DNA of 64,000 nt from Candidatus Rubrimentiphilum sp. Lineage in GTDB: Bacteria; Vulcanimicrobiota; Vulcanimicrobiia; Vulcanimicrobiales; Vulcanimicrobiaceae. The DNA lies in the NCBI GenBank assembly GCA_035710515.1, contig DASTDE010000002.1, positions 124,001 through 188,000 of the forward strand, in the 5' to 3' direction. The notes beneath the pieces were generated by a model, which saw only the letters and a program-made list of their open reading frames with translations, searched no databases and was not told where the DNA came from. Position 1 is the first letter of the stretch; each line of letters starts with the position of its first letter. Made by a program: the position numbers and the translations under genes. Of this stretch, positions 718-64,000 are shown piece by piece.

Positions 718-2070
718 ATGCAGACGCGGTCGCTTGCGGCCATTTTCAAAAGCTATGACGTCCGCGGAATCTATCCCGACGAACTCAACGATGATTTAGC
801 CTATCAAATCGGGCGCTGCTTCGTGCCGCTGCTCAACGCGAAGAACGTGGCAGTCGGACGCGACATGCGGGAATCGGGCGAACATCTTTTCGAGGCGTTT
901 GCCCGGGGAGCGACCGAAGCGGGCGGCAACGTCATGGATGTCGGCCGGGTTTCGACCGATGCGCTGTACTTCGCGGTCGGCAAGTACAAGCTGGATGGCG
1001 GCGTGATGATCACCGCATCGCATAATCCCGCCAACTACAACGGCATGAAGTTTACACGCGATCAGGCGCAGGCTATTTCGTTAGATACCGGCCTCGCTCA
1101 AATTCGCGACCAGATCGCCTCAGCGAATCTTCCGCCAAAGACGACGGGCACGCCGGGGCAGGTTACGCAAAAGTTTATCTTAGATGAATTTGCGGCACAT
1201 TGCCTCTCATTCATCGAACCGAAGAAGATCAAGCCGTTCAAGATAGCGATCGATGCCGGCAACGGCATGGCCGGCGAAACCATTCCGCACGTCTTCAAAC
1301 ATTTGCCCTGCGAGGTGGTGCCGCTCTACTTTGAGCTCGACGGCAGTTTTCCGAACCATCCGGCCAGCCCGATCGAACCCGAAAATATGATCGACCTGCA
1401 GGCCGCCGTGCGCAAGCATAAATGCGACCTGGGCGTGGCATTCGATGGCGACGCCGACCGTATGTTCATCGTCGACGAAAAGGCCGGCTTGATCGACGGA
1501 AGCACGGTGACCGCGCTGGTCGCCCTCAACACTCTCAAGCGCCGCCCCGGCAGCAAGATTCTTTACAACCTTATCTGCAGCCGAAGCGTACCTGAATTGA
1601 TAAAGAAAAACGGCGGCATCCCGGTCCGGTCACAGGTGGGGCACTCGCTTATCAAGCAGCGCATGCGCAGCGAGGACATTATTTTTGGAGGAGAACACAG
1701 CGGCCACTTCTACTTCCGCGATAACTGGTACGCCGATTCGGGAATGATCGCCCTGATGGAATGCCTCGAACTCTTCAGCGAAACCGATAAGCCGGTCAGC
1801 GAGTTCATCACGCCTATCGACACGCGCTTCCGCTCGGGGGAAATCAACACGACCGTCAAAGACGTGCAGGCGAAGATGCGCGAGATCGAAGAGCATTACA
1901 AAGGCGCCGACGTCGACCATTTGGATGGCGTGACCATTTCCTATCCGGACTGGTGGCTGAATGTACGGCCTTCAAATACCGAGCCGCTTTTGCGTTTGAA
2001 CGTTGAGGGCGACACGCGCGAACTTATGGAACGGCATCGCGACGAGGCGCTGGCGGTGATTCGCTCATGA
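718..2070 (+). CDS. manB: Phosphomannomutase/phosphoglucomutase
   Basis: A 450-residue alpha-D-phosphohexomutase that interconverts hexose 6- and 1-phosphates, feeding nucleotide-sugar synthesis. The active-site phosphoserine is in TASHNPANYNGMKF (Ser about 101). The Mg loop is DGDADRMF (about 243-250), the sugar-binding loop GGEHSGH lies near 324, and the phosphate-binding RPSNTEPLLR near 418, so all four domains are complete. The length equals that of bacterial PMM/PGM. It overlaps nagA by 4 bases (ATGA), so the two are probably co-transcribed. The mannose-6-phosphate isomerase at 59957 could supply the same pathway. Which hexose is preferred cannot be told from sequence. Confidence 0.93.
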   Translation: MQTRSLAAIFKSYDVRGIYPDELNDDLAYQIGRCFVPLLNAKNVAVGRDMRESGEHLFEAFARGATEAGGNVMDVGRVSTDALYFAVGKYKLDGGVMITASHNPANYNGMKFTRDQAQAISLDTGLAQIRDQIASANLPPKTTGTPGQVTQKFILDEFAAHCLSFIEPKKIKPFKIAIDAGNGMAGETIPHVFKHLPCEVVPLYFELDGSFPNHPASPIEPENMIDLQAAVRKHKCDLGVAFDGDADRMFIVDEKAGLIDGSTVTALVALNTLKRRPGSKILYNLICSRSVPELIKKNGGIPVRSQVGHSLIKQRMRSEDIIFGGEHSGHFYFRDNWYADSGMIALMECLELFSETDKPVSEFITPIDTRFRSGEINTTVKDVQAKMREIEEHYKGADVDHLDGVTISYPDWWLNVRPSNTEPLLRLNVEGDTRELMERHRDEALAVIRS

Positions 2071-3230
2071 ACCGTTTCGTCATCGGCCCGGCTTCGATAG
2101 CTTTAGGCGACGGTTCGTCGGCCGAAGGACGCATCGCGATTGAAAACGGGCGCATCGCCGAGCTACTCCCGAGCGATGGCCCGGCCGATCATCCTTTGCC
2201 GGCGGGAACGCATATCGCGCCCGGATTAATCGACATTCACACCAACGGTGCGGGCGAGTTTCTTTTCAATCGCGATCAAGGCTACGCCGTCCCGGTGGCG
2301 GCGGTCGACTATGCGCGCCAGGGCGTTACCGGTTTTGTGGCCGGCATCATGACGGCGCCGTGGGAATCGATGCTGCATGCCGCCGGCGAAGTCGTCGAAG
2401 CCGCGCACCAGCTCGAGGAAGACTCGCCGCGCGGCGCGCGCTGCTTGGGTATTCACTTCGAGGGGCCGTTCATCAATCCGAAATTCCGGCGCGTTCATCA
2501 ACAGCAGTGGATCGTTCCCGCGACACGCGAACGCACGCGCGCATTAGTCGACGCGTGCCGGGGCGCGTGTTTGATGGTGACGATGGCGCCGGAAGTGGAC
2601 GGCGTCTCTGACGCAGCACGATATTTCCTGGAGCACGGCATCGTCTGTTCGGCAGGCCATACCGCCGCGCGATACCGCGAAGGAATGCTCGCGATCGGGC
2701 TGGGGTTCCGCTCGCTCACGCACGCATTTAATGCGATGCCGCCGCTCGACCATCGCGATCCCTCGATTCTGGCGGCATTCATCCAGGACGGCAGGACGAC
2801 TGTTCAGGTCATCTGCGACGGCATTCACGTCGCGCCCGTTATGGTCGATCTTCTGCGCCGTACGGTGCACGAGCGGCTGATTTTGGCAACGGACAACATG
2901 CCCTCAGCCGGCCCCGGCTATCACATCTCGGGCGGCGTCATGCGCGCTGAGGACGGAACGATTGCGGGCAGCGCGATTCGCATGGATGAAGCGGTTCGCA
3001 ATTACATGAGCTACACGGAATTGCCGTTCGCCAAAGCAGTCGTCGCTGCGACACACACGCCCGCAAAACTCCTGTCACTCGACCGTGAAATGGGACGCAT
3101 TGCGCCCGGCGCACGTGCGGATCTTTCGTTCTGGGATAGCAAGCACAACGTCATCGGTACGATGGTCGGCGGCGTTACCGTTTTCGGCGAGATGTTCACG
3201 CCCGCCGCCGCTCAAGCCGTGTCATCCTGA
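2067..3230 (+). CDS. nagA: N-acetylglucosamine-6-phosphate deacetylase
   Basis: This 387-residue amidohydrolase-family enzyme removes the acetyl group from GlcNAc-6-phosphate in amino-sugar and cell-wall recycling. The N-terminal metal segment reads DIHTNGAGEF. The other family motifs follow in order: HFEGPFINP (Glu ligand), SAGHTAA (His ligand), LTHAFNAMPPLDHR, CDGIHVAP and the catalytic Asp in ATDNMPSAG. HxN instead of HxH is as in E. coli NagA and is not a defect. It is coupled to the mutase by a 4-base overlap. The last codons (V-S-S-stop) lie in a dispersed repeat that begins at 3219, so the original C-terminus may have been different. Confidence 0.92.
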   Translation: MNRFVIGPASIALGDGSSAEGRIAIENGRIAELLPSDGPADHPLPAGTHIAPGLIDIHTNGAGEFLFNRDQGYAVPVAAVDYARQGVTGFVAGIMTAPWESMLHAAGEVVEAAHQLEEDSPRGARCLGIHFEGPFINPKFRRVHQQQWIVPATRERTRALVDACRGACLMVTMAPEVDGVSDAARYFLEHGIVCSAGHTAARYREGMLAIGLGFRSLTHAFNAMPPLDHRDPSILAAFIQDGRTTVQVICDGIHVAPVMVDLLRRTVHERLILATDNMPSAGPGYHISGGVMRAEDGTIAGSAIRMDEAVRNYMSYTELPFAKAVVAATHTPAKLLSLDREMGRIAPGARADLSFWDSKHNVIGTMVGGVTVFGEMFTPAAAQAVSS

Positions 3231-3327
3231 GCGGTGTTCGCGTAGCGAACGCGCAGCAGTGTCATCCTGAGCGGCGTTCGCGAAGCGAACGCCCAGTCGA
3301 AGGGCCCCTGAGCCTGGCGAAGGGCCA
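3219..3327. repeat. Dispersed palindromic repeat, about three tandem units
   Basis: Two units begin TGTCATCCTGAGCGG and each carries a perfect-looking palindrome around GTTCGCG[TA]AGCGAAC (3237-3251 and 3277-3291). A third, diverged part reads AGGGCCCCTGAGCCTGGCGA. The first unit overlaps the nagA stop codon (TGA 3228-3230). It is the same family as the copies at 9431, 17778, 28908, 29676, 35952, 46761, 50295, 50848, 51660, 56176 and 62952. Confidence 0.85.
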
Positions 3328-9430: not shown

Positions 9431-9563
9431 GCCCCTCGTCACGCGTGCCTTTGGCACGCTGCTCGGGGATGGTTCGACAAGCTCACCATGACACTCTCGC
9501 GAGCGCCCCTCGTCACGCGCCCTGGGCGCGCTCCTCGGGGTCCTTCGATACCTCAGGATGACA
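9431..9563. repeat. Two composite copies of the dispersed repeat between livK and livH
   Basis: Each copy shows both modules: a stem module CCCCTCGTCACGCG...CTCGGGG with a different palindromic centre (GTGCCTTTGGCAC in the first, GCGCCCTGGGCGCGC in the second), followed by an end module, GGTTCGACAAGCTCACCATG in the first and CCTTCGATACCTCAGGATG in the second. It fills nearly all of the 145-base intergenic gap. The copies give the clearest view of the unit's architecture. Confidence 0.88.
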
Positions 9564-16338: not shown

Positions 16339-16692
16339 ATGGTCCGCTTCGGACAAACCTGCGCGGCGATCGCAGCGCGCGCCGGAAAACTCGAAAAGAT
16401 TGCCTTGCTCGCGGAGTACCTCCGTTCGCTTAGCGACGCGGACTTAAGCGCGGCGGCTCGATTCTTCACCGGCAATCCGTTCGCGGCGCGCGATCAGCGT
16501 AGCCTCGGCATCGGTTACCGAACGATCGTCGCGGCGGCCAGGAACGCGTGGGGATTCGACGACGCCCAGCTCGGCTCGATGTACCGCGAGCGGCGACTTG
16601 GGCGTGGCCTTAGGTCCGTTCGTGAGGCCGCCTATGGACCTGGCGCTTTTCTCGGAAACGCTGACGCCGGCGTCGCTCTTCCTGATTTTTGA
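16339..16692 (+). CDS. N-terminal fragment of ATP-dependent DNA ligase (frame 1, before a frameshift)
   Basis: The first ~84 codons (through LGSMYR) look like the start of the DNA-binding domain (PF04675) of an archaeal-type ATP-dependent ligase: LEKIALLAEYLRSLSDADLSAAARFFTGNPF. After position ~16587 this frame turns into basic low-complexity sequence, while the expected continuation ASGDLGVALGPFV is found in the next frame. A +1 shift near 16585-16590 joins the two. Either one base is wrong in the assembly, or the gene carries a real or programmed frameshift. Confidence 0.7.
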   Translation: MVRFGQTCAAIAARAGKLEKIALLAEYLRSLSDADLSAAARFFTGNPFAARDQRSLGIGYRTIVAAARNAWGFDDAQLGSMYRERRLGRGLRSVREAAYGPGAFLGNADAGVALPDF

Positions 16693-18061
16693 AGAGATCG
16701 CGGCGGCCTCCGGCAAGTCGGCGGGCCGAAAACGCGAGATTCTTTGCGAACGCATTTTGCGAGCGTGCACCGGCGCGACCGAAGCGACGTACGTCATTAA
16801 AATCATGACGGGTGACCTGCGGATCGGTTTGCGTGAAGGACTTGTGGCGGACGCGGTTGCCGCGGCGTTCGCGTGCGACGCGCACGAGGTGCGTCGCGCC
16901 GTCATGGCTGCCGGCGACATTGGAGCCGTCGCGATAGCGGCGCGCGCAGGGCGGCTAAGCGAGGTCCGAATCGGGTACGGCTCGCCCATCGGGTTCATGC
17001 TTGCTACGCCCGTGATGTATGGATCAGAGTATAAAGACTTACGCGGCGAGCAGTGGCTGGTTGAAGATAAATTCGACGGCATCCGCGCGCAAGCGCACAA
17101 AACCGGCGACAACGTGCGGATATTCTCTCGCACGCTCAATGACGTAACACAATCCTATCCCGAGGTGGCGGATGCGCTGCGCGCGACTTCCGGAGACTTC
17201 ATGCTCGACGGCGAGATCGTCGCGCAGCGCGGCGAGAGCGTGCTGCCGTTTCGCTACCTGCAAGCACGCTTGCAGCGCAAGATAGTCGACCCGCAATTGC
17301 TGAAAGACGTTCCCGTCAAGTTCTTTGTGTTCGACATTCTTGCTTCGGGCGAGCAGTTTCTGATCGACGAGCCGCTCATTGAACGGCGCGCACGGTTGGC
17401 GGAAACGGCGGTAGGCGGCCCGCATCTGGCCGTTGCGGACTTCGCACCGTTGCCGGAAGGCGTGACTCCCGAGGAGATACACGAACGGTTCGAAGCTGCG
17501 CGAGCGCGCGGGCACGAAGGCATCATGCTCAAACGCAGCGATGCGCCGTACCATCCGGGGCGGCGCGGCAAATGGTGGCTCAAACTCAAACGCGAGCTGT
17601 CAACGCTCGACGTCGTCGTAGTGGCGGTCGAATGGGGGCACGGGAAGCGCGCCAAGGTGCTTTCGGATTACACGTTCGCAGTGCGCGGACACGATAACGA
17701 GCTGCTGACGATCGGAAAAGCGTATTCGGGTCTAACCGACGTTGAGATCGCGGAACTCACGCAATGGTTTTTAGCGCACCCTTCGATACCTCAGGGTCCT
17801 TCGATACCTCAGGATGACAACAGACCTCACGATGACAACGACAAGCGGTTCCCGCATGCAATAGCGGTTGAGCCGAAGATCGTGCTCGAGGTGGCGTTCG
17901 ACATCATTCAACCCAGCGATCTGCACGAAAGCGGATTCTCGCTGCGATTCCCGCGCATCGTGCGTATCCGGGACGACAAGCCGGCCGAAGAAATCGACAC
18001 GATCGAGCGCGTTCGAGAAATCTACAGCGACATGCTCGCGCGCGAGGGCTTGCAGCCTTAG
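16598..18061 (+). CDS. lig: ATP-dependent DNA ligase, catalytic and OB domains
   Basis: 487 residues from a TTG at 16598. Nucleotidyltransferase motif I is EDKFDGIRAQ with the adenylated Lys (158 here); motif III is FMLDGEIV, IV HEGIMLKR and V WWLKLKR, and the OB domain follows (PKIVLEVAFDIIQPSDLHESGF). It seals DNA nicks; ligases of this long, archaeal-like type in bacteria probably serve repair. The N-terminal domain is completed by the frame-1 segment from 16339. Between the OB strands WFLAH and AIAVEPKI there is an in-frame repeat insertion (PSIPQ twice, then DDN-rich). Its effect on activity is unknown. Confidence 0.9.
   Translation: MGVALGPFVRPPMDLALFSETLTPASLFLIFEEIAAASGKSAGRKREILCERILRACTGATEATYVIKIMTGDLRIGLREGLVADAVAAAFACDAHEVRRAVMAAGDIGAVAIAARAGRLSEVRIGYGSPIGFMLATPVMYGSEYKDLRGEQWLVEDKFDGIRAQAHKTGDNVRIFSRTLNDVTQSYPEVADALRATSGDFMLDGEIVAQRGESVLPFRYLQARLQRKIVDPQLLKDVPVKFFVFDILASGEQFLIDEPLIERRARLAETAVGGPHLAVADFAPLPEGVTPEEIHERFEAARARGHEGIMLKRSDAPYHPGRRGKWWLKLKRELSTLDVVVVAVEWGHGKRAKVLSDYTFAVRGHDNELLTIGKAYSGLTDVEIAELTQWFLAHPSIPQGPSIPQDDNRPHDDNDKRFPHAIAVEPKIVLEVAFDIIQPSDLHESGFSLRFPRIVRIRDDKPAEEIDTIERVREIYSDMLAREGLQP
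17778..17840. repeat. Dispersed repeat inserted in frame inside the ligase gene
   Basis: Two head-to-tail copies of the end module (CCTTCGATACCTCAGG and TCGATACCTCAGGATGAC), then a short third piece ACCTCACGATGACAAC. Together they encode the peptide PSIPQGPSIPQDDNRPHDDND, which has no counterpart in the ligase family. The insertion lies in a surface loop of the OB domain and keeps the frame. Confidence 0.87.
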
Positions 18062-18073
18062 CGGAAGGACCGC

Positions 18074-18142
18074 ATGAGTACCAAGGACGAACGCGGCAAC
18101 CCGATGGGGATGGAGCTCCCCGATAACCGCCTCTCCGGCTGA
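18074..18142 (+). CDS. Possible 22-residue small protein
   Basis: An ATG-initiated ORF of 22 codons (starts MSTKDERGNP, ends PDNRLSG) lies between the ligase and the antiporter. A good ribosome site GGAAGGA is 5-6 bases upstream. It is charged, hydrophilic and has no membrane segment. I recognise no family; conservation would be needed to call it real. Confidence 0.35.
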   Translation: MSTKDERGNPMGMELPDNRLSG

Positions 18143-18181
18143 TGGCTCCTGTCAACGCGAACGCTAGACGGGAGTTTTTTT

Positions 18182-24251: not shown

Positions 24252-24323
24252 GGGGCCGTAGCGTAATTGGTAGCGCGCCGTGTCGCCAACTCGGAGGTGC
24301 GGGTTCAATCCCCGCCGGCTCCA
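24252..24323 (+). tRNA. tRNA-like gene, anticodon GCC (Gly) with an odd anticodon loop
   Basis: A 72-base cloverleaf can be folded: acceptor GGGGCCG/CGGCTCC (one G-T pair), T8-A9, D arm GCGT/GCGC with AATTGGTA loop, T arm GCGGG-TTCAATC-CCCGC and discriminator A. The anticodon stem CCGTG/CTCGG has one T-T mismatch and the loop TCGCCAA gives anticodon GCC but C instead of the near-universal T at position 33. CCA is not encoded. It could be tRNA-Gly(GCC), an atypical isoacceptor or a decaying copy. It sits alone on the plus strand inside a leftward gene cluster. Confidence 0.58.
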
Positions 24324-26256: not shown

Positions 26257-27431
26257 TAAAGCCTTTCGAAGATCGTACTGATGCCCTGGCCGACGCCGAT
26301 GCACATCGTCGCCAATCCATACCGCGCCTCGCGCCGCCGCAGTTCGTGCAGGAGCGTCGTCGCGATGCGAGCGCCGCTTGCGCCTAACGGATGGCCGAGC
26401 GCAATCGCGCCGCCGTTCACGTTCGCCCTCTCCGGGTCGATCTCCAGGTCACGCAAGCATGCAATCGATTGCGCTGCGAACGCCTCGTTAATCTCGACCA
26501 GGTCCATCTGATCGATGCGCAGGCCCGCGTGCGCCAGCGCCTTGCGCGTCGCCGGGATCGGCCCGAGGCCCATGACATCCGGATGCACGCCGGCCGCCGC
26601 CGTGGCAACGACGCGCGCGATCGGTTTGAATCCAAGCTTCTTGGCCGTCTCCGCTTCGCAGAGCAAAAGCGCGGCGGCACCGTCGTTGATGCCCGACGAA
26701 TTACCGGCCGTGACCGTGCCGCCGGTTTTAAAAGCCGGTTTGAGCTTCGCCAACGCTTCCAGGGTCGTGTCGGGCCGCGGATGTTCATCCGCACCTACGT
26801 CGCCGACCGCGATCGTTTCTTGCGCGAAGGTGCCGCGCGCGACCGCGGCTTTGGTGCGCATCTGCGATTGGTACGCGAAGCGGTCTTGCTCCTCGCGCCC
26901 AATCTTGTAACGCTCGGCGACGTTCTCGGCAGTTTCGCCGAGCGAGATCGGCGGATAGAGCTCCTGCATGCGCGGGTTTATCATGCGCCAACCGATCGTC
27001 GTGTCGAACATTTCGATGGCACGATCGAACGGCTTCTCGCCTTTGAGTTGCACGAAGGGCGCGCGCGTCATCGATTCGACGCCGCCCGCGATAACGACGT
27101 CGCTTTCGCCATAGGCAATTGCGTGGGCGGCCGAGTTTATGGCCTGCAGGCTGCTGCCGCACAAACGATTCATCGTCGCGCCGGCAACTTCAACGGGAAG
27201 GCCCGCGAGAAGTGCAGCCATACGGGCGACGTTACGGTTGTCTTCGCCGGCTTGATTGGCCGCACCAAGAAACACGTCTTCGATCTGCTGCGGCGCAACG
27301 CCGGTGCGTTTGACGATCGCTTCAATAACGATCGCGGCGAGATCGTCCGGGCGTACGTTGGCCAGCACGCCGCCGTATCGTCCGATCGGCGTACGGACCG
27401 CGTCGACGACTACGACGTCACGCATTTTCAA
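26256..27431 (-). CDS. Acyl-CoA thiolase (acetyl-CoA C-acyltransferase)
   Basis: 391 residues, thiolase family. Nucleophile Cys in MNRLCGSSLQAINSAAHAI (about residue 90), His in NVNGGAIALGHPLGASGARI, and second Cys in TMCIGVGQGIS. It cleaves a 3-ketoacyl-CoA with CoA, as PaaJ or FadA does in degradation. It starts inside the dehydrogenase gene end (4-base overlap at 27428-27431). Placement between 3-hydroxyacyl-CoA dehydrogenase and ALDH suits a degradative route to acetyl-CoA and succinyl-CoA. Confidence 0.92.
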   Translation of the reverse strand: MKMRDVVVVDAVRTPIGRYGGVLANVRPDDLAAIVIEAIVKRTGVAPQQIEDVFLGAANQAGEDNRNVARMAALLAGLPVEVAGATMNRLCGSSLQAINSAAHAIAYGESDVVIAGGVESMTRAPFVQLKGEKPFDRAIEMFDTTIGWRMINPRMQELYPPISLGETAENVAERYKIGREEQDRFAYQSQMRTKAAVARGTFAQETIAVGDVGADEHPRPDTTLEALAKLKPAFKTGGTVTAGNSSGINDGAAALLLCEAETAKKLGFKPIARVVATAAAGVHPDVMGLGPIPATRKALAHAGLRIDQMDLVEINEAFAAQSIACLRDLEIDPERANVNGGAIALGHPLGASGARIATTLLHELRRREARYGLATMCIGVGQGISTIFERL

Positions 27432-29080
27432 AACGGCATTCCCGGATAGATCACGCTGCCGCCCGGCTTCGATTCCACGGCGCCCTCGGCGACCGCGACG
27501 TCCATCGCGTTGTCTTCATCTTGCACATCCAGCACCCACAACGCGCGGTGCGGCGAAAAAGCTGCGCCTTCGGCTCCGGCCAGGCGTTGCAGGATGCGCA
27601 CGACGCGGTCGCCGCCGATTTCGCGTCCCCAGGCGATTGGCCCGAGCGGGTAGTTCGTCCCCAAACGCATCGCCAGGTCCACGTCGGCCGGCGACGCGAC
27701 TTCTTCTTCTTGCACCGCGTAGACGGCTTCATTGATGATCGAGCCGATCGTGCGCCCGAGAAAGAGTCCCGGCCGGTCTTCCACGAGCACGACGCGCTTG
27801 CCGATCGCTTCGAAGACCTCTTGCGCGAGTTCGAGGGCATCGTCGCTCGTGTTTTCGGCGTCCACGATCTCGATCACGCTTTGCCGCTCGAGCGAGCCGA
27901 GCAAACCGAACCCCACAACGCGTTCGGGGTGGCGCAAACGCTTGGCAAGCGACGTCAGATCGGTCGCATACGCGTCAGCGAAAATCACCGTCTCCGGTGG
28001 AAAAAGCCGATCGAGGTCGGCGATAAACGCGCCGCGATCGCTCACGCCGTCGCCCGCATCGATCACGGTAGTCGTGTCGAGCGGCATCTCGTCGATCGCT
28101 TCGGCGTTCTCGCAGACGTTCACATGACCGTACGCCTTGTCCAGCGCCTCGCGCAACTCGATAGCGACGTTCGTGATGCCAACGATGAGAATCCGTTCGT
28201 CCTGGTTCAGCTCGCCCGGCGGTTGCGGGGGCGAATCGTCGTGACGCGGCGTGCCGCCGCTGTAATCGTAGAATCCGGAACCGGTCTTTCGACCGAGCTT
28301 GCCGCCCGCCACCAGTTCTTGCTGCAACGCAACCGGCTTGAGCCGCGCGGCGCCGGTGCGTTCGTAAATCGATTGCGATGTTGCCAAGTTAACGTCCAGT
28401 CCGATGAGATCCATGAGCTCGAACGGCCCCATGCGAAAACCGGCTCCGCGGGCCAAGCGATCGAGATCCTCCATCGGCGCGACGCCCTCTTCGTACGCGT
28501 GCATCGCTTGCAGATAAAATGGGCGCGCGACGCGATTCACTATGAAGCCGGGCGTGTCGGCCGTAACGACCGCCGTCTTTCCAAAACGTTCCGCGATCGC
28601 GCGAGCTTGTGCGACGGCTTCGTCGGAGGTCTCATCGCCGCGAACGATTTCTACGAGTTTCATCACAACAGGCGGATTAAAGAAATGCAGCCCGAGAACG
28701 CGCTCGGGATGCTCGACGGATTCGGCGATCTCGCTTACGGAGAGCGACGACGTATTTGTGGCCAGTAACGCCTTCGGACCGAGCGCGTCAGCAAGCGTTT
28801 TAAAAATGGTGCGCTTTAAGTCGAGCCGCTCGGGCACGGCTTCGATCGCGAGCTCGGCATCCAGTCCAGTGGGAACGGAGTCGTAGAACTGAACGCGCTG
28901 CATGATCGTGTCATCTTGCGCCCCTGTGTCATCCTGAGCTTGTCGAAGGATGACGTCGCGTGCTCGTGATTGGGCACCCGCATCGGGCTCGATCAGCGAA
29001 ACGCTGTCGCCGGCGAGGGCCGCAACCGCTGCGATGCCCGCCCCCATCGTTCCGGCGCCCACGACGACAATGTTTGCCAC
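27428..29080 (-). CDS. 3-hydroxyacyl-CoA dehydrogenase, two-domain PaaH-like
   Basis: 550 residues. N-terminal NAD-binding fold VVGAGTMGAGIAAVAA (GxGxxG), then NPPVVMKLVEIVRGDETS, and a first C-terminal dimer domain (GFIVNRVARPFYLQAMHAYEEGVA); a second such domain follows (FLGRTIGSIINEAVYAVQEEE, LGTNYPLGPIAWGREIG). This doubled layout is like E. coli PaaH. It oxidises a 3-hydroxyacyl-CoA with NAD. Around residues 42-58 a dispersed repeat is inserted in frame (LRQAQDDTGAQDD), just after the first beta-alpha-beta unit, so function should be checked. First gene of the leftward cluster. Confidence 0.9.
   Translation of the reverse strand: MANIVVVGAGTMGAGIAAVAALAGDSVSLIEPDAGAQSRARDVILRQAQDDTGAQDDTIMQRVQFYDSVPTGLDAELAIEAVPERLDLKRTIFKTLADALGPKALLATNTSSLSVSEIAESVEHPERVLGLHFFNPPVVMKLVEIVRGDETSDEAVAQARAIAERFGKTAVVTADTPGFIVNRVARPFYLQAMHAYEEGVAPMEDLDRLARGAGFRMGPFELMDLIGLDVNLATSQSIYERTGAARLKPVALQQELVAGGKLGRKTGSGFYDYSGGTPRHDDSPPQPPGELNQDERILIVGITNVAIELREALDKAYGHVNVCENAEAIDEMPLDTTTVIDAGDGVSDRGAFIADLDRLFPPETVIFADAYATDLTSLAKRLRHPERVVGFGLLGSLERQSVIEIVDAENTSDDALELAQEVFEAIGKRVVLVEDRPGLFLGRTIGSIINEAVYAVQEEEVASPADVDLAMRLGTNYPLGPIAWGREIGGDRVVRILQRLAGAEGAAFSPHRALWVLDVQDEDNAMDVAVAEGAVESKPGGSVIYPGMPF
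28908..28954. repeat. Dispersed repeat inside the 3-hydroxyacyl-CoA dehydrogenase gene
   Basis: Plus-strand GTGTCATCCTGAGCTTGTCG followed by AAGGATGACG, with a half copy GTGTCATCTTGCG just before. In the coding strand it gives LRQAQDDTGAQDDT, a peptide absent from the enzyme family. It is read in a phase free of stop codons. Confidence 0.86.
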
Positions 29081-29675: not shown

Positions 29676-29729
29676 CCCCTCGATACCTCGGGGTGGTTCG
29701 ATACCTCACCATGACAATTAGGATGACAA
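29676..29729. repeat. Dispersed repeat at the nudix/lhr convergent junction
   Basis: CCCCTCGATACCTCGGGGTGG is followed by TTCGATACCTCACCATGACA and a partial third unit ATTAGGATGACAAT. It covers the whole intergenic gap. On the lhr strand the third unit supplies the last codons TTG-TCA-TCC-TAA. Confidence 0.86.
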
Positions 29730-32700
29730 TGCGAGTTCGGGGCGCGTAGCCGGAAGAACGATGCCGGCAAGCTGGAGCGGATCGTAAGAGCCAACCTGCA
29801 CGAGTTCGCCATCGTCGCCGCCGCGGTGGACGGCGCGCAGCGCTTCGATCGCCTCCGGCAACGCAAACTGCTCGCCGACGTAGCCCGAAACGAAACGGCC
29901 GCCTCGAATTTCTCCGCGTGCCTCGAGCCGGCGCAGCGCCTGCAAGAGCTCCCGCCACGGCGGCGCAAGACTTTCGCGCGCGATCACGTCGCGGAAAAGC
30001 ACGCCCCAGCGTTCGAGCAGCTGCCGCGCGAATTTTTCTGGATCGATACGCTCGGTCGTGGAAGCGAGCAGAGTCCAGCGCCCGCTCGAAGAGCGAGGAC
30101 GAGCGCGCAGCCCCTTCTCCCCCAGCCTGCGCTTGGCATCGATCAGCGAGCGCAGCGCATCGAATCCATCTGCGGTAACAAGCCCGGCAGCGACGAGCTG
30201 CCAAAGCGCCTCCTCGACCTCCGCCGGTAAGCGTTTGGTTTCGCGAACGATCTCGGTGAAGAACGGCGCGCGCAGATTCTGTATAACTTCGAGGACCTCG
30301 CGCGACGCATGAGAGAGGCCACTGACGCCATCCTCACGCCGTACGATCAGGTCGCCGGAGTCCTCGCGCGTGAAGAGTGAAATCGGCGCGATCTTCGTCG
30401 GACGGATGCGGCGCGCGACTTCGCCCTCTTCAATAGCAAGTGAGGGATGCGGCGCCAGGCGTCCCCACATCACTTCGCCCGAGTAACAGAGCTTGTCCAA
30501 GTATTCGGAGCGGTATCCCGCGACGCGTTTAGGCAGAATTTGCGTTTCCCACGCCGCCGCCGGAATTTCGTATCCTTGGAGCTGCTTGACGATCTGCAGC
30601 GTGCCGTCGACGCCGTGCAGGCGTGTCGCCGGCTCGACGTGCTGCCAGCGATGCAGAAACCGGACGAACTCCGCGGAGGTAACCGGCTCGATTTCGCGCC
30701 GCAGCTGTCCGATCGTACGACGATGAATCCGCGCGAGCACGCGGCGATTGCACCACTCTTCTTGCTCGCCGCCGCGAAAACGGCCACGCAACAGTTGCCC
30801 CTGTGTTTCGAGGCGGATTAACGCCGCTTCAATTAGCGCGGCATCCACGCGAAAACGCTCCGCCATTTCGCCAACCGTCAACGGACCGCTGCATTCCAGC
30901 CATCCCCGCAGCACTTCCGCAACGGATTCTTCTTGCTGCTGCAGCAAGGCGGACCGGGCGAGATCCGCGCGTTCGGCAGCGACCCAGAAAGGCGTGCCGG
31001 CGACGTCCAAAGTTATGACGCGATTTTGCGCGGCGAGCTCGTCGTACCAAGCGTTCCAGTGCGCTGCGGGCGCCAGTACGATCAGCGTGAGCATGGCGTC
31101 GTGCAGTTCGTCGGCGTCGCGGACGACGGGCCACGACTCTTCGGCGACTTCGGCGATGACGGTCGCGTCGAGGATGCCGGCGCCGTCGAGATCGTCGCGA
31201 ACCGTCCGGCGCAGCTGCACCGCACGCGCGCGGCGCTCTTCCAGCGGGGCGTCGTCCAGGTAGGCATACGGGTTTGCATTGAGGATCTCGTGACAAAACG
31301 GCGAGGGCTCGGGCGTATCGACCGCAACAGTTCGTATACTGCCGTCTTCGATAGCCTGCAAAATGGTCATCAGCCCGGGCAAGTCCATGGCTTCGTGCAG
31401 ACAGTTGGCGATCGTCTCGCGCACCAGGACGTGATCCGGAATCCGAATCGGCCCCGTCAGATTCTCGGCGCAGGCGGCTTGGTCCGGAAAGACCGAGGCC
31501 AGCAGATCGTCGGCGCGCATGCGCATCAGTTGCGGCGGCACTTTGCGTCCGCCGCGCATGCGCAGAATCGCAAGCGCGCGCGTCGCATTCCAGCGCCAAC
31601 GCGCACCAAACATCGGTGCCGCGAGCAGCGCTTGCGTCAGCGTGTACTCGACGCTGGCGGTCTTCACGTATTCGAAGACGATATCGAGCGGAAAGGCGTG
31701 CTGGTCGGTGAGCGAGAGGCAGATGCCGTTGTCGGTGGCGGCAGCTTGCAACTCGAGGTTGAACGACCGGCAGAATTTCTTGCGCAGCGCCAGCCCCCAC
31801 GCGCGATTGATGCGCGCGCCGAAGGGCGTGTGCAGAATCAGCTGCATGCCGCCGCCTTCGTCGAAAAAGCGCTCGGCAACGATGGTGCGATCCGTCGGGA
31901 CGACGCCCAGCACTTTCTTGCCGGCGCGTACGTAGGTGACGGCTTGCTCCGCGCCCGCGCGATCCAGGCCGCACTCGCGTTCGAGCAGCTCTATCGCGGT
32001 TGGATCGTCGCGTTCGTCGATCGCGGCGCGCAGCGCCGAAACTTCATGCGAGAGCTCGATCGTACGGCCGCGGCCTTCGCCGTTCCAAAACGGAATCGTC
32101 GGCGCGGCGCCGTGCGCATCTTCGACGCGCACGATGCCCGGCTCGATGCGCCGGATGCGCCAGGACGTGATGCCCAGCAAGAACACGTCGCCCGCCAAGC
32201 TTTCCACTGCGAAGTCCTCGTCAAGCGTGCCTACGACATGCCCTTCGGGTTCGGCGACTACGTTGTAGTTGGCGGTGTCCGGTATTGCTCCGCCGGACGT
32301 GATTGCCGCTAAGCGGGCGCCGCGCCGGGCGCGTACGCGCTGGTTCACGCGGTCGTAATGCAGAAACGCGCCGCTGCGTCCGCGCGAATGCGCGACGCCG
32401 TCGGCCAGCATGTCGAGGACGTCGTCAAAATCTTTGCGCGTCAGATCGCGGTAGGGATACGCGGAGCGCACCAGGTCGAAGAGCGCGTCGACCTCGTACT
32501 CGCCGCTCGCGGTTGCGGCAACGATCTGCTGCGCGAGAATGTCCAGCGGCGCCGCGGGAATCACGAGCGCATCCAAAGTGCCGCTGCGGATCGAACGCAC
32601 GAGCGCCGCGCACTCCAGCAGCTCGTCGCGCGTGGTGGCGAAGAGCCGGCCTTCGGGTTTTGCGCCGACCCAGTGGCCGGATCTGCCGATGCGCTGCAGC

Positions 32701-35951: not shown

Positions 35952-36000
35952 GCGTGTCATGGTGAGCCTGTCGAACCACGCCCGAGCGAAGTCGAGGGCC
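35952..36000. repeat. Dispersed repeat copy
   Basis: TGTCATGGTGAGCCTGTCGA then ACCACGCCCGAGCGAAGTCG AGGG: the end module in a diverged form plus half of the stem module. It lies between the H1-like terminator and the next lipoprotein gene, not touching a coding region. Confidence 0.75.
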
Positions 36001-46760: not shown

Positions 46761-46784
46761 CCCTTCGATACCTCAGGATGACCG
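46761..46784. repeat. Dispersed repeat, single end module
   Basis: CCCTTCGATACCTCAGGATG ACC, lying exactly between the hydrolase stop (46758-46760) and the cyclophilin 3' end. On the minus strand it provides TCA-TCC-TGA, the last codons of the cyclophilin. Confidence 0.86.
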
Positions 46785-47267
46785 AGACTCGATCACTACT
46801 TTTGTGATCTCGTCGCCGCGCCGGATCGCGTCGAGTGTTTCAAACCCATCGGTGAGTTGTCCAAAAACCGTATATTGCTTATCCAAGAAGCGCGCGTCAT
46901 CTAAGCAGATGTAAAACTGCGAGCCCGCCGAGTCGGGAGACGAGGCGCGTGCCATCGCGACGGTGCCGCGCACGTGCGGACGATCGTTGAATTCGGCCTT
47001 CAAATTGTAGCCGGGGCCGCCGGTGCCGTCGCCTTTCGGGTCGCCGCCTTGGATGACGAAGCCCGGCTCCACTCTATGGAAGGCCAGCCCGTCATAAAAC
47101 CCGGCTTCCGCCAGTTTGACGAAGGCCGCCGAGTGCTGCGGCGCGTCGTCGGCATAAAAAGTAAAGACCATGTCGCCCTTGGGCGTCGTGATGCGCGCCG
47201 TCGAGGTTTTTGCGCGGTCGAGAAGGGTGCGCAACTCCTCGCCGACGGGAGCCGTATGTGTTGCCAT
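46773..47267 (-). CDS. ppiB: Peptidyl-prolyl cis-trans isomerase, cyclophilin type
   Basis: 164 residues. Catalytic region FHRVEPGFVIQGGDPKGDGTGGPGY with the Arg, and GSQFYICL; no signal peptide, so cytoplasmic. It speeds proline isomerisation in folding. The final residues SRSS and the stop come from the repeat. Immediately downstream of the GIY-YIG gene (TAG-ATG). Confidence 0.92.
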   Translation of the reverse strand: MATHTAPVGEELRTLLDRAKTSTARITTPKGDMVFTFYADDAPQHSAAFVKLAEAGFYDGLAFHRVEPGFVIQGGDPKGDGTGGPGYNLKAEFNDRPHVRGTVAMARASSPDSAGSQFYICLDDARFLDKQYTVFGQLTDGFETLDAIRRGDEITKVVIESRSS

Positions 47268-50294: not shown

Positions 50295-50340
50295 GCCCTT
50301 CGACTGCGCTCAGGGTCGTTCGATACCTCACGATGACAAC
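50295..50340. repeat. Dispersed repeat, both modules
   Basis: CCCTTCGACTGCGCTCAGGG (stem module) followed by TCGTTCGATACCTCACGATG ACAAC. On the minus strand it supplies TTG-TCA-TCG-TGA, the last codons of hemL; the GH47 start ATG lies 4 bases away. Confidence 0.87.
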
Positions 50341-51662
50341 AATGATTCATCAATTGCAGTCAGCGTTTCATCCACGTCGGCGACGGTGTGTGCGGTCGAC
50401 AGAAACATCACTTCGTTTTGTGAAGGCGGCAAGAGTATTTTTCGCCTGCGCATTTCGTGATAGTAAGCCGCATACCGCGCTGAATCGGCCAACAGTGCGT
50501 CGTCGTAGTTGCGGTTTGGCGCGCCGGCGCGGAACTTAAAATCCACCGCAGACTCGTGCTGGACGACCGCGTAGGGTAGACTGCGTCGCTCGAAAATGCT
50601 TCTAATGCCAGTTGCCAGCCGCTTCGCAAGCCGGTCCGTATTTTCGTAACACTCGGGATACGCTTCCAGCAGATCGAGCACGCGATGCGCCATCCCCACG
50701 GCAAATGGGTTGCCCGCGTGGGTGCCGCCCGTAAAGACGGGGCCGTCAGGCGCGAGCATCGTCATGACATCTTCCCGGCCACCGAATGCGGCAATCGGGA
50801 AACCACCGCCCAGTATTTTCCCGATCGCGGTAATATCAGGCTGCACGCCCCTCGACTCCGCTCGGGGCCGCTCGCTTCGCTCGCGGTCCTTCGATACCTC
50901 AGGATGACAATCAAACTCACGATGACGGAAGCGAAGCCAGGTAATGATCTCGTCGAAAATGAGCAACGCACCGCTGCGATCCGCGCGCTCGCGCAAGCCT
51001 TCGAGAAACCCGGGAACAGGCAGCACCAAGCCCATATTCGCCGCAACCGGCTCGACCAGAATTGCCGCGATCTCGTCCTCGCGGCCGCGCAGGGCATCGT
51101 CCACGCTCTCCAAGTCGTTGTAGCGCGCGACGGCGACGTCGCGCTGTACGCCGGCGGGTATTCCGCTGCGACGGGCGTGCGCGGTCTTTGCCGAAGCCCC
51201 GGCGGCGAAGAGCGCCGCGTCGAAGTGACCATGATAGTTCCCGGCAAATCGCAGAATGAGATCTCGTTGCGTGAAAGCGCGCGCGACGCGCACCGCGCTC
51301 ATCATCGCCTCGCTGCCGGTTGTGGTGAACCGGATGCGCTCCATCGAAGGAATCCGCGCGCGAATGCGCTCCGCTAGACGCACTTCTTCGGGATGCGTCG
51401 ACCCGTAGAGCACACCACGCGACGCAAGGTCGTCGAGATCGCGCGTCAGCGCCGGATGATTGTATCCGAAGAGCAACGGGCCATAACCCATGATGTAGTC
51501 GATGTAACGCTCGCCGTTTTCATCGAACGCATATGCGCCGTCGCCGCGACTCTGAATGAACGGTGTGCCGCCCACGGCCCAGCCCGAACGCACGGGGGAA
51601 TCACATCCGCCTGCGAGTGCGGCGCTCGCAAGCTCCGCGATTGTCTGCATGTTTTGCGCCAC
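50328..51662 (-). CDS. hemL: Glutamate-1-semialdehyde 2,1-aminomutase-type aminotransferase
   Basis: 444 residues, class III PLP aminotransferase. PLP Lys in ITAIGKILGGGFPIAAFGGR, GSEAMMSAVRVARAF near 120, and FTGGTHAGNPFAVGMA. HemL makes 5-aminolevulinate for heme and B12. The frame carries an insertion (CHPEVSKDRERSERPRAESR) near residues 243-266 where HemL has none, and ends in LLSS from a second repeat. Other class III enzymes are possible; no other heme gene is near. Confidence 0.82.
   Translation of the reverse strand: MAQNMQTIAELASAALAGGCDSPVRSGWAVGGTPFIQSRGDGAYAFDENGERYIDYIMGYGPLLFGYNHPALTRDLDDLASRGVLYGSTHPEEVRLAERIRARIPSMERIRFTTTGSEAMMSAVRVARAFTQRDLILRFAGNYHGHFDAALFAAGASAKTAHARRSGIPAGVQRDVAVARYNDLESVDDALRGREDEIAAILVEPVAANMGLVLPVPGFLEGLRERADRSGALLIFDEIITWLRFRHREFDCHPEVSKDRERSERPRAESRGVQPDITAIGKILGGGFPIAAFGGREDVMTMLAPDGPVFTGGTHAGNPFAVGMAHRVLDLLEAYPECYENTDRLAKRLATGIRSIFERRSLPYAVVQHESAVDFKFRAGAPNRNYDDALLADSARYAAYYHEMRRRKILLPPSQNEVMFLSTAHTVADVDETLTAIDESLLSS
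50848..50935. repeat. Dispersed repeat inside the hemL gene
   Basis: CCCCTCGACTCCGCTCGGGG, then palindrome CGCTCGCTTCGCTCGCG, then TCCTTCGATACCTCAGGATG ACA and a short ACTCACGATGACGG: the full composite plus one extra end. On the coding strand it gives HPEVSKDRERSERPRAESRG without stop. The insertion is in frame. Confidence 0.88.
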
Positions 51663-51722
51663 TCGTCAGGCCCGCTTAACGGCGCGCTGCTCGGGGGTCC
51701 TTCGACAAGCTCAGGATGGCAC
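51660..51722. repeat. Dispersed repeat between dprA and hemL
   Basis: A diverged stem module CACTCGTCAGGCCCGC...CTCGGGGG, then TCCTTCGACAAGCTCAGGATG GCA. It fills the gap between hemL start and dprA end; the dprA stop TGA (51711-51713) is inside. Confidence 0.85.
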
Positions 51723-54668: not shown

Positions 54669-56178
54669 ACACTACTTCCCCATCGCACCACGTTGCAAGA
54701 ACGCGGCAATCGGTAAACTCGTCGCCGTCGAGCGGATCGCGATCGAGGATCGCCAGATCGGCCGCATATCCTTCGGCGAGCATTCCGGTGCGCATCTCCG
54801 CGTGCGCCAAGCGAGCCGCGTTGTAGGTGTACATCGTGATGGCCTGCCCCGGTGAGAGCCGTTCGCGCGGCTCATGATGATCGACTGTGGCTTGCATGCC
54901 TTGCAAAGGTGCGAGTTCGCAGACCGGACTGTCGTCGCCCCCGCACAGGACCGCGCCGGCCCGTTCGATTCGTCCGAGGGCGTTCATGCTGCGCATCCGC
55001 TGAGATCCCAACCGCTGCTCGTACATGCCGCCCACACCACCCCAAAGCATATCAAACTGCGGCTGCATCGAAAGGTAAATGCCCAGGCGCGCGCAGCGTT
55101 CGATGTGATCGTCGCGCGCTATTTCGAAATGTTCGATAAAGTGGCGGCAACCGGTCGCGCTCGGTTTTCCGCCGAGGACGCGCTCCCACGTTGCGACGCA
55201 TTGTTCGATCGCGCGGTCGCCGATGGCGTGAACGCCCGCCGAGACCCCGAGCGAGTCGGCGGTCGAAAAATACTCGTAGACCTGTTCGTCGGAGTAATTC
55301 AGCTCGCCGCGGTTCGGCGGCCCGCCGTTCTGTGAAACGAAAGGCTCGCTAACGGCTGCCGTGCAGCTTCCGATCGATCCGTCGAGAAACACGTCGCCGC
55401 CGATAAACGGCAGGCCGAGCTCTTTGGCGAGTCGAGGATCCGGCTCGCAGATCTTCGGATACCATTTAGCTCTTGGCAGATCGCCGAGCGCCGCGATTTC
55501 GTCTGCATATTGATCGCGTGCGAAGCCCACGAATTGCGCGTGCAGGTGCAAGCAGCCGCGCGAGAGCGCCAATTCGGTCGCGCGTTTGTCAGCGGCTCGT
55601 TTTGCGGCTAGCGGCAGCTTCGCCATGAAGGCCGCTTGTGCGCGCCAGTTCGCTTCGAGAAACAGTTTTCCGGTCGGTCCACCCTCGTGGTTTCTCTCGC
55701 TTCCGCCCACAGCGGGCGGAAGGTTAAGCCACGCAAGCGTCTTGCGATTCACGATGCATGAATGTCCATCAACGCGCACGAGCATCGCAAACGCATCCGC
55801 GAGTTCGCGCTCCAGTGGCGCCGCGTCGGCGAGACGTCCGTCGCGCCACGCGCTCTCGTCGTATTGCCCGGCCAGCACGTATGTTTCGCGCGGCAAACGA
55901 GTCACCGCGGCGGCGAATTCGTCGTAAGAGCGCACGCCGTTCAAATTGCGTTCGTCGAGGAAATGCCCGGTATCGGTAAGATGCACGTGACAGTCGGCAA
56001 ACGCCGGCAGAACCGTTGCGCCTTGCAGATCGATTCCTTCGACGGTCGCGCCGGCGCTCGATGGATCGAGCGAAACGATCGTCGGGCCGTCCAGCACCAG
56101 CCCGTTGTGCCGGGAGTACGAACCACGGCGCGGATCGTACCGATAAACGCGCGCGTTACGGAGCGCCTTCACCTTCAC
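54646..56178 (-). CDS. Amidohydrolase family protein, YtcJ-like
   Basis: 510 residues from GTG 56178. Metal site FADCHVHLTDTGHF (HxH) near 70; further His in GCLHLHAQF and VHAIGDRAIEQCV, and LCGGDDSPVCELAPLQGMQATV near the C-terminus. YtcJ-type enzymes (PF07969) are metal-dependent hydrolases, substrates mostly unknown. No signal peptide. The repeat at 56176 abuts the start. Confidence 0.88.
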   Translation of the reverse strand: MKVKALRNARVYRYDPRRGSYSRHNGLVLDGPTIVSLDPSSAGATVEGIDLQGATVLPAFADCHVHLTDTGHFLDERNLNGVRSYDEFAAAVTRLPRETYVLAGQYDESAWRDGRLADAAPLERELADAFAMLVRVDGHSCIVNRKTLAWLNLPPAVGGSERNHEGGPTGKLFLEANWRAQAAFMAKLPLAAKRAADKRATELALSRGCLHLHAQFVGFARDQYADEIAALGDLPRAKWYPKICEPDPRLAKELGLPFIGGDVFLDGSIGSCTAAVSEPFVSQNGGPPNRGELNYSDEQVYEYFSTADSLGVSAGVHAIGDRAIEQCVATWERVLGGKPSATGCRHFIEHFEIARDDHIERCARLGIYLSMQPQFDMLWGGVGGMYEQRLGSQRMRSMNALGRIERAGAVLCGGDDSPVCELAPLQGMQATVDHHEPRERLSPGQAITMYTYNAARLAHAEMRTGMLAEGYAADLAILDRDPLDGDEFTDCRVLATWCDGEVVYAEDQTR

Positions 56179-56219
56179 CCTTCGACTGCGCTCAGGACTC
56201 GATACCTCACGATGACAAA
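56176..56219. repeat. Dispersed repeat at folK-folE2/amidohydrolase boundary
   Basis: CCCTTCGACTGCGCTCAGGA, then CTCGATACCTCACGATGACA. On the minus strand it ends folK-folE2 with TTG-TCA-TCG-TGA and reaches the amidohydrolase start. Confidence 0.87.
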
Positions 56220-57619: not shown

Positions 57620-57652
57620 GATTGGGTACTTATGGACGAGGAGAGTGATCGC

Positions 57653-62941: not shown

Positions 62942-64000
62942 GTGGGTGAGGCCTCGGCAGGCTCGGCCGTGGTTCGACAAGCTCACCATGACAGTTATGT
63001 CCGCCAGCCTCGTTTTTGCGCCACTGCCTGCAACGGCAGCCGATATGTCGTCCGTGACGACGCTTCCAAAGCCGGCGCCGGGCGGCATCGCTTGGAAACC
63101 GGCGCAGATCGCCGCGCTGAACCGCACCATTGAGAAGTTGCTGTCCGCACCGACGCTGCGCGGCGCACAAATAGGCCTTATTGTCGCCGACACCGTTCGC
63201 GGCTCCATGGTTTACTCGCAAAACCCCGATCAAGAGTTTATGCCGGCCTCCAATTTCAAACTGCTCGTGGGTTCGGCAGCGTTGAACGCGCTTGGGCCGA
63301 GTTTCAGCTACACAACAACGGTAACGGCGGATGCCGCGCCGCAAAACGGCACCATTACAGGCAACCTGTACCTGCGCGGCGGCGGCGACGCACTGCTGAG
63401 CGCTAAAGACCTTGACGATGCCGCAGCGGCTGTGGCGGCGCAAGGCGTCAAAGCGATAACGGGCGTCGTCGTCCCCGACCCTTCTCACTTTGACAGTCAG
63501 CGTTACGGCTTCGGCTGGTCCTGGGACGACCTTCCCTATTATTACGCGCCGGTGGTGAGTGCGCTGGAACTTGAAGACGGCATCGTGCACATCTACATGT
63601 CTCCGGGCGCCGCGCCCGGGGCGCCCGCGAATCTTCGGATTGTGCCGCAAACTGGTGCTTTTGCGATCCAGGACAACTTGATTACCGGTGCTGCCGGATC
63701 CAAAGACACATCGGAGATCGTCCGGCCGTGGTATGCACCAACAAGGATTGAAATTACCGGCAGCTATCCCCTCGACGCTAAGGAATCGGGTGACATCCAT
63801 CCAAGCGTTCCAGATCCTACGAAGTACGCTGCCGACGTTTTCGCCGGTGCTTTACGGTCTCATGGCATATCCGTGAACGGAACGATGATTGTTGACGGTG
63901 ATGGCAGGGTTGTAGCCGGCACGACGCTGTTGTGGACACACCAATCCGAGCCGCTGCCGCAACTGCTTGCGGATTTTTGGTATCCGAGCGACAACTTGAT
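62934..64000 (+). CDS. dacB: D-alanyl-D-alanine carboxypeptidase/endopeptidase (PBP4, S13), 3' end outside window
   Basis: At least 355 residues, open to the window edge. Signal peptide (MSKW...SASLVFAPLPATAA); then AALNRTIEKLLSAPTLRGAQ, the SxxK motif PASNFKLLVG, LYLRGGGDALLSAKDL, and SxN in YPSDNLI at the edge. It trims peptidoglycan stem peptides. The ATG at 62934 overlaps lysA by 8 bases; alternative ATGs at 62988 and 62997 lie after a repeat that fills the signal's n-region (RPWFDKLTMT). Confidence 0.9.
   Translation, partial: MSKWVRPRQARPWFDKLTMTVMSASLVFAPLPATAADMSSVTTLPKPAPGGIAWKPAQIAALNRTIEKLLSAPTLRGAQIGLIVADTVRGSMVYSQNPDQEFMPASNFKLLVGSAALNALGPSFSYTTTVTADAAPQNGTITGNLYLRGGGDALLSAKDLDDAAAAVAAQGVKAITGVVVPDPSHFDSQRYGFGWSWDDLPYYYAPVVSALELEDGIVHIYMSPGAAPGAPANLRIVPQTGAFAIQDNLITGAAGSKDTSEIVRPWYAPTRIEITGSYPLDAKESGDIHPSVPDPTKYAADVFAGALRSHGISVNGTMIVDGDGRVVAGTTLLWTHQSEPLPQLLADFWYPSDNL
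62952..62994. repeat. Dispersed repeat in the dacB signal-peptide coding region
   Basis: CCTCGGCAGGCTCGGCCGTG then GTTCGACAAGCTCACCATGACA. It encodes RQARPWFDKLTMT, basic residues that serve as the n-region of the signal peptide, or moves the start to the ATG at 62988 that belongs to the repeat itself. Confidence 0.82.

Follow-up and report, generated by a model that had tools for sequence, protein, structure and literature searches.

Tagged hairpin repeats with an invariant tandem G·A mismatch, a probable REP-type mobile element in Candidatus Rubrimentiphilum and other bacteria

The genome of a Candidatus Rubrimentiphilum sp. (2.54 Mb, five contigs) carries a dispersed family of repeats built from a single hairpin design, in which a tandem G·A mismatch is invariant and the paired arms vary in sequence. 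We regard these repeats as a non-autonomous, REP-type mobile hairpin element, with a probability of about two in three. The stretch analysed, called the window, comprises 64,000 nucleotides (positions 124001-188000 of contig C2). The initial annotation had claimed at least 12 loci of a dispersed repeat in it, and 12 sites were found, of which the one at 9.5 kb holds two units (Table 1). The original observation is real and extends beyond what was described; the earlier reading is partly supported, the tandem G·A invariant and the spread over many phyla having been missed.

Repeats with a CGTC or TGTC tag have been orphans since 2013, mobile in appearance and without an enzyme. They now have an exact, testable recognition signature, namely the tag, the tandem G·A and paired arms of any sequence, as well as a large sample from across the phyla and a genus in which they spread recently with neither reverse transcriptase nor Y1 transposase, and the question of what copies such hairpins becomes experimentally approachable. 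The family would be missed by conventional repeat and REP searches of the sort that forbid mismatches or require conserved sequence.

The hairpin module and its pairing

On the GTCAT strand, one module is composed of an arm, GA, an apical part, GA, and the complementary arm. The arms have 4-5 pairs of variable sequence and are strictly complementary, the tandem G·A mismatch is invariant between the arms and the apical part, in Py-GA-Pu context on both strands, and the apical part is either a short loop or another palindrome, likewise variable. A (TT)GTCAT tag marks the leading hairpin of a unit, with one to two further hairpins head to tail. Among 133 tag-headed units in the sampled sequence, 20 contain one module, 92 two and 21 three, all arranged head to tail, so that 113 of the 133 continue in the same orientation with one or two more hairpins. 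The minus strand of 9431-9563 gives examples of the module: tcct-GA-GGTATC-GA-agga, cccc-GA-GGAGCGCGCCCAGGGCGCGTGAC-GA-gggg, atggt-GA-GCTTGTC-GA-accat and cccc-GA-GCAGCGTGCCAAAGGCACGCGTGAC-GA-gggg. The modules of this site span 9541-9558, 9506-9540, 9469-9489 and 9432-9468. A two-module build had been proposed, with a CCCCTCG..CGGGG "stem" and a TTCGA..CTCAGGATGAC "end"; the two turn out to be one hairpin design, repeated one to three times.

The stem of the tagged hairpin opens with AT and has eight positions (five pairs, GA and one pair), two of which are G·A mismatches, and the loops are 4-5 nt long (GTAT or CTTGT). Most units bear the unpaired tag TTGTC at one end. The common unit is about 42 nt long (TTGTCAT..AGGG) and has sharp ends, with T at -1 in 90% and at -2 in 71% of cases and no conservation outside; the ends TTGTCAT and AGGG are not inverted repeats of each other, and up to eight loci share an identical 40-mer. 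Half-units, composed of tag, left arm, GAG and loop and lacking the right arm, occur at 41 of 172 tag sites of the own genome, always on the tag side and in the same orientation as the next tag, 15-23 nt upstream of it (three at 34-41) and mostly at 18, 21 or 22 nt. We also noticed that several half-units end in TCGGG (for example at L027 1501-1558, L006 1493-1537, L020, and 17819-17838 and 50909-50928 of the window).

Table 1. Repeat sites in the 64,000-nucleotide window
Site	Strand	Composition	Gene context
3219..3324	+	Tag-led half-unit (palindrome GTTCGCGTAGCGAAC), second with GTTCGCGAAGCGAAC, then CCCT-GA-GCCTGGC-GA-AGGG	First TGA is stop codon of ORF 2067-3230
9431..9563	-	Two tandem composite units, each a GTCAT-tagged GA-hairpin then a CCCC/GGGG GA-hairpin with variable inner palindrome	
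9431..9563, unit one	-	Tagged hairpin 9541-9562 and hairpin 9506-9540, centre GCGCCCTGGGCGC	
9431..9563, unit two	-	Tagged hairpin 9469-9492 and hairpin 9432-9468, centre GTGCCTTTGGCAC	
17778..17838	-	Half-unit, tagged hairpin and CCCT/AGGG hairpin	In frame inside ORF 16598-18061(+)
28928..28954	+	Single unit, stem fully extended (GTCATCCT..AGGATGAC)	In frame inside ORF 27428-29080(-)
29676..29717	-	Tagged hairpin TGGT/ACCA and CCCC/GGGG hairpin	Immediately 3' of stop codon of ORF 29718-33815(-)
35954..35999	+	Tagged hairpin TGGT/ACCA and GCCC/GGGC hairpin	
46761..46782	-	Single tagged hairpin	Provides stop codon of ORF 46773-47267(-)
50296..50339	-	Tagged hairpin TCGT/ACGA and CCCT/AGGG hairpin	TGA is stop of ORF 50328-51662(-)
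50847..50928	-	Half-unit, then GA-hairpins TCCT, CCGC and CCCC in a row	In frame inside ORF 50328-51662(-)
51659..51720	-	Tagged hairpin TCCT/AGGA and degenerate second module	TGA is stop of ORF 51711-52565(-)
56176..56216	-	Decayed composite unit, right arm of first hairpin lost	TGA is stop of ORF 56207-57658(-)
62950..62994	-	Tagged hairpin TGGT/ACCA and GGCC/GGCC hairpin	

A 5'-Py-GA-Pu-3' context is known from nucleic-acid chemistry to form tandem sheared G·A pairs. The closing pairs of the hairpins are pyrimidine-purine in 63 of 66 cases and the inner pairs purine-pyrimidine in 63 of 66, and sheared G·A pairs are predicted for TTGTCATCCTGAGGTATCGAAGGA. The hairpin structure is strand-specific, because GA stands on one strand only and the other has T·C mismatches. 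A kink-turn was considered and dropped, the 3-nt bulge being absent beside the G·A pairs. Nearest-neighbour folding of the short stems is ordinary (z of about -0.8 to 0.3 for composite units, GA strand); plain thermodynamic stability as the selected property was thus rejected, and stability alone is not what is selected. Rfam gave no family match for the repeats of the window, where only a tRNA and a fluoride riboswitch scored above the gathering score. The riboswitch (RF01734, 51.7 bits) lies at 18097-18158(+), upstream of ORF 18142/18182-19302.

Own-genome statistics were obtained from the window together with stretches around copies (376 kb) and from genome-wide pattern counts. The genome-wide search that had been called for returned 133 tag-headed matches to GTCATNNTGAGN{2,32}CGAANNA, against 0 for the reversed control. 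In a count made before any motif was assumed, GAG/CGA was among the commonest inner-triplet pairs of the window hairpins (4-bp arms, 9-15 nt loops), with 20 occurrences against a class mean of 1.3. Two tests of pairing are unselected. Seeding on the loop only (GAGN4-5CGA) gave at least four flanking pairs in 62 cases vs 4.6 with right flanks re-dealt, and four one-base control seeds gave no excess of flanking pairs. Counting mismatch classes in the sampled sequence gave 166 GA..GA hairpins vs 10.9 expected, whereas the "repaired" forms are at or below chance (GA..TC 0 vs 0.9, TC..GA 3 vs 5.4) and six other mismatch classes are also at chance level.

Covariation was scored on two alignments, both hand-picked subsets of distinct sequences. 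In the own-genome alignment, seeded on the loop GAGGTA(T/A)CGA alone, 95.3% of cells pair and both sides change in four of five pairs; the score is 0.469 vs 0.198 when shuffled (0/500), and slid partners reach at most 0.17. The cross-phylum alignment (CTTGT-class loops) scores 0.473 vs 0.156 when shuffled (0/500) and, being made up mostly of tagged copies, has tag columns that are not independent. The inner palindromes of the long modules are all different and self-complementary; in bona fide modules, about 22 of them reach 5 bp or more. The initial annotation is borne out on both of these points, having described variable yet self-complementary centres between constant flanks and suggested either selection on structure or a copying mechanism that preserves it; the family keeps structure rather than sequence.

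Complementarity could also be kept by mutation, through template switching in quasi-palindromes (snap-back synthesis), with the repeats arising via replication slippage. Nine or more arm sequences, all of them paired, would fit such a process, as would the 41 half-units upstream of the next tag, which aborted copying would leave behind. Template switching should, however, erase the mismatches too, and the rarity of GA..TC (0) and TC..GA (3) next to 166 GA..GA forms is the reverse of this; the absence of repaired hairpins largely refutes it as the sole cause. Dispersal to new sites is also left unexplained. We judge this account of the family improbable, and template switching survives as a contributor to arm diversity.

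Genomic context and spread among congeners

In a cleaned set of 128 units with paired arms, 83 lie outside genes predicted by a simple codon-usage model, whose calls are approximate, even though coding sequence makes up 92% of the bases sampled. Where both neighbouring genes run in one direction, the tag in the gap points to the 3' end of the upstream gene in 39 cases vs 12 (p = 0.0002); convergent gaps number 28 and divergent ones only three. In 12 cleaned units, and in 16 of a looser set, the gene uses the TGA within GTCATNNTGA as its stop codon. Intragenic copies are equal on both strands (24 vs 21). REPs are known to be distributed in this way, and the pattern argues against a purely RNA-level role.

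The seven genomes of the genus hold 20-112 copies each. The loop TGAGGTATCGAA is present in 88 copies in the own genome vs 0, 0, 0, 1, 1 and 1 in six congeners, every one of which carries its own copies with other loops. The initial annotation had proposed to compare empty sites in close relatives; occupied, empty and variant states were all found, and the family is mobile by this comparison. An orthologous site may hold the element, lack it or carry a different one, and most sites are not conserved between congeners. The copies at 17778..17838 and 28928..28954 are net insertions of 19 aa and 8 aa, each absent from four of four congeners in a conserved host gene, and that at 50847..50928 is a net insertion in a third gene relative to the two congeners giving a match. 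The site of 46761..46782 is empty in G006, holds another loop in G002 and a copy in opposite orientation in G004; that of 9431..9563 shows other module variants in G002, G005 and G006 and is nearly empty in G004. At the site of 35954..35999, flanks and GCCC/GGGC arms are shared with G002, whose loops differ, so modules are swapped, or rewritten in place. The loop expansion confined to one species, together with the in-frame copies missing in four congeners, indicates that the spread of the family is recent. A MITE of a DDE transposon would have terminal inverted repeats and a target-site duplication; the unit ends are as given above, and identity to the nearest relatives, at only about 75-80%, is too low for a duplication to be read.

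Two further observations concern the relatives. Genome G016, of the same family and another genus, has about 40 copies of the variant GTCATGCTGAGGAGCGATGCGAAGCA, many clustered about 100-300 nt apart, which is a separate species-specific burst. The tRNA gene at 24252-24323(+) of the window adjoins a synteny break with several congeners.

The same positions invite the reading that the repeats are resident RNA elements of 3' untranslated regions, acting as mRNA stabilisers or as signals for decay or the end of translation and selected site by site, with a GA motif that is an RNA structure bound by a cellular protein. In RNA, too, tandem sheared G·A is a stable motif. The tag mostly lies behind the 3' end of a gene, both in tandem gaps (39 vs 12) and by the predominance of convergent over divergent gaps (28 and 3), and its TGA doubles as the gene's own stop in 12-16 copies. 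However, a transcript-level function sits poorly with copies lying inside genes on both strands equally, with most sites being unconserved between congeners and with an expansion of the GTAT loop in the own species only; the Rfam search without a match and the unremarkable folding energies point the same way. We consider resident RNA elements unlikely.

Distribution over bacteria and the search for an enzyme

A scan of the collection identified at least 120 stretches with the hairpin, from roughly 17 phyla among the matches listed, the phyla being read from record titles, individual ones of which stand for just one contig of an uncultured genome. They are Bacteroidota, Pseudomonadota, Nitrospirota, Nitrospinota, Zixibacteria, Calditrichota, Elusimicrobiota, Spirochaetota, Chloroflexota, Eremiobacterota/Vulcanimicrobiota, Patescibacteria, Bacillota, Verrucomicrobiota/Lentisphaerota, Cloacimonadota, Latescibacterota, Methylomirabilota and Thermodesulfobacteriota. 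In 78 of 94 matches the two free arm positions pair completely, vs about six expected, so most cross-phylum matches are not due to chance. Eighteen carrier genomes contain 2-139 copies each and no reversed-control match. Intergenic copies are found on plasmids of Sphingobium, Rhizobium, Methylobacterium, Hymenobacter, Comamonas and Gloeothece; in phage genomes, matches are at chance level only.

In Hymenobacter the GA-hairpin forms head-to-head doublets with starts 65-73 nt apart and a variable palindromic centre, resembling REPINs. In Hymenobacter G062 (L274-L278), the flanking 1-7 nt beyond both tags of a head-to-head doublet are often complementary to one another, as in AAATCT..AGATTT, and the doublets look as though they were inside pre-existing palindromes or extended them.

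The initial annotation had advised looking for a REP-associated (RAYT) transposase or a reverse transcriptase, the latter being what copying by a retroelement such as a group II intron, DGR or retron would require. Profile searches of the own genome gave no match to Y1_Tnp/RAYT (PF01797, NF047646) or to reverse transcriptase RVT_1 (PF00078), and Y1 (PF01797, NF047646) is also absent from the other six genomes of the genus. The Y1 searches do work elsewhere in the class, where they pick up RAYT-like proteins in other families, mostly without repeats, and IS200-like Y1 genes in G026 and G032 of the same family. In family f3, which is without repeats, RAYT-like Y1 genes are frequent; in family f1, which has the repeats, these genes are nearly absent. 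Among the 18 carriers from other phyla, 13 have Y1 genes and five have none. At 30 sampled Y1 loci of these carriers a motif copy lies within the 3.3-kb locus in only one case; over 60 Y1 loci of relatives and carriers there is one motif copy in the flanks, two further matches being chance.

Conventional REP/REPIN biology would have a RAYT/Y1 transposase, recently lost or supplied in trans from elsewhere, moving the units. The anatomy of the unit does parallel REPs, IS200-like Y1 genes exist within the family (G026, G032), and Hymenobacter combines REPIN-like doublets with Y1 genes. The absence of Y1 from all seven genomes of a genus with 20-112 copies each, the scarcity of repeats in Y1-bearing families of the same class and the single flanking copy among 60 loci nevertheless make it quite unlikely, and Di Nocera et al. 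(PMC3733652) describe such a dissociation for CGTC repeats as well. On the evidence of the profile searches, the mobilising enzyme in the genus is probably not of the known Y1/RAYT type.

For the mobile hairpin element favoured here, we infer that DNA rather than RNA is what matters in vivo: wherever the GA strand becomes exposed, as it might on the lagging strand, it would form a single-stranded DNA hairpin, and a trans-acting protein would recognise the tag, the mismatch and the paired stem. This putative protein would read shape rather than arm sequence and copy or paste the unit elsewhere, a proposal modelled by analogy on TnpA-REP, for which GTAG and a two-mismatch stem are read in E. coli. 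Copies would accumulate just after stop codons and in frame in genes because insertions are tolerated mainly there, and half-units may be abortive copies. More tentatively, a single structural class (TGTC tag, Py-GA-Pu sheared G·A and free paired arms) may extend over most bacterial phyla, multiplied by an enzyme system other than HUH-Y1 whose copying renews the arms yet keeps their pairing and leaves half-units as aborted products; we hold this as possible but somewhat doubtful.

Comparison with known systems

A literature search with the literal repeat sequences found no description of them, and the GA-hairpin motif is not present in PMC12306157, on REP biology. The closest relatives appear to be the CGTC REPs, compared here by the text description of four CGTC families and including Neisseria dRS3 and Rickettsia RPE-4/RPE-6 (Di Nocera, De Gregorio and Rocco 2013, PMC3733652). 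As described in that text, they have a CGTC tag that is frequently TGTC instead, AT at the start of an 8-9 bp stem and a loop of 4-5 nt, are without a transposase, form dimers that are mostly head to head, head-to-tail ones being "negligible", and in Rickettsia lie in frame in genes. To the extent of this description, the GA-hairpins share the TGTC tag, A-T at the first two stem positions, eight stem positions, the loop of 4-5 nt, a dispersed and extragenic location 3' of genes with some copies in frame, and the missing transposase. They differ in having an obligatory G·A/A·G mismatch at two positions of the stem, in forming head-to-tail chains of two to three hairpins (113/133), with head-to-head relatives in Hymenobacter, and in occurring in many more phyla. 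The published pipeline discarded units with more than one stem mismatch (PMC3733652), and GA-hairpins would therefore be removed by its filter. We place the GA-hairpin family as a variant within the CGTC/TGTC REP kind and not as a proven member of it, given its two mismatched stem positions and head-to-tail chains as against a fully paired stem and head-to-head dimers; it may overlap with one of the four CGTC families.

Synthetic DNA mini-hairpins of the d(GCGAAGC) type are extraordinarily stable and have sheared G·A pairs. Rickettsia palindromic elements (RPEs), as described, are longer elements of Rickettsia. Our modules share with the mini-hairpins (PMC10527192) the Py-GA-Pu rule and, in some modules (for example 50868-50886), loops such as GCGAAGC, and differ from these synthetic oligonucleotides in being a genomic repeat family with a predicted sheared geometry. 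With RPEs (Ogata et al., cited in PMC3733652) they have in common, from what is cited there, that they are palindromic, in frame inside protein genes and open in several frames; unlike here, a GA-hairpin module is not reported for RPEs in the text of PMC3733652.

GTAG REPs and REPINs of E. coli, Pseudomonas and Stenotrophomonas are likewise imperfect hairpins with a 5' tetranucleotide tag and a conserved two-base mismatch, strand-specific, extragenic and high in copy number, and the Hymenobacter copies form REPIN-like doublets. In contrast, the tag here is TGTC and not GTAG, RAYT is absent from the genome and the genus, and no motif-flanked RAYT is found in other carriers. The TnpA-REP of E. 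coli requires GTAG together with the conserved bulge of two mismatches and is no longer active once the stem has been repaired (PMC8266576), which by analogy makes it the best functional precedent for GA staying fixed while the arms vary. Judged against these systems, the GA-hairpin appears to be a widespread REP-type mobile hairpin variant, new relative to described REPs.
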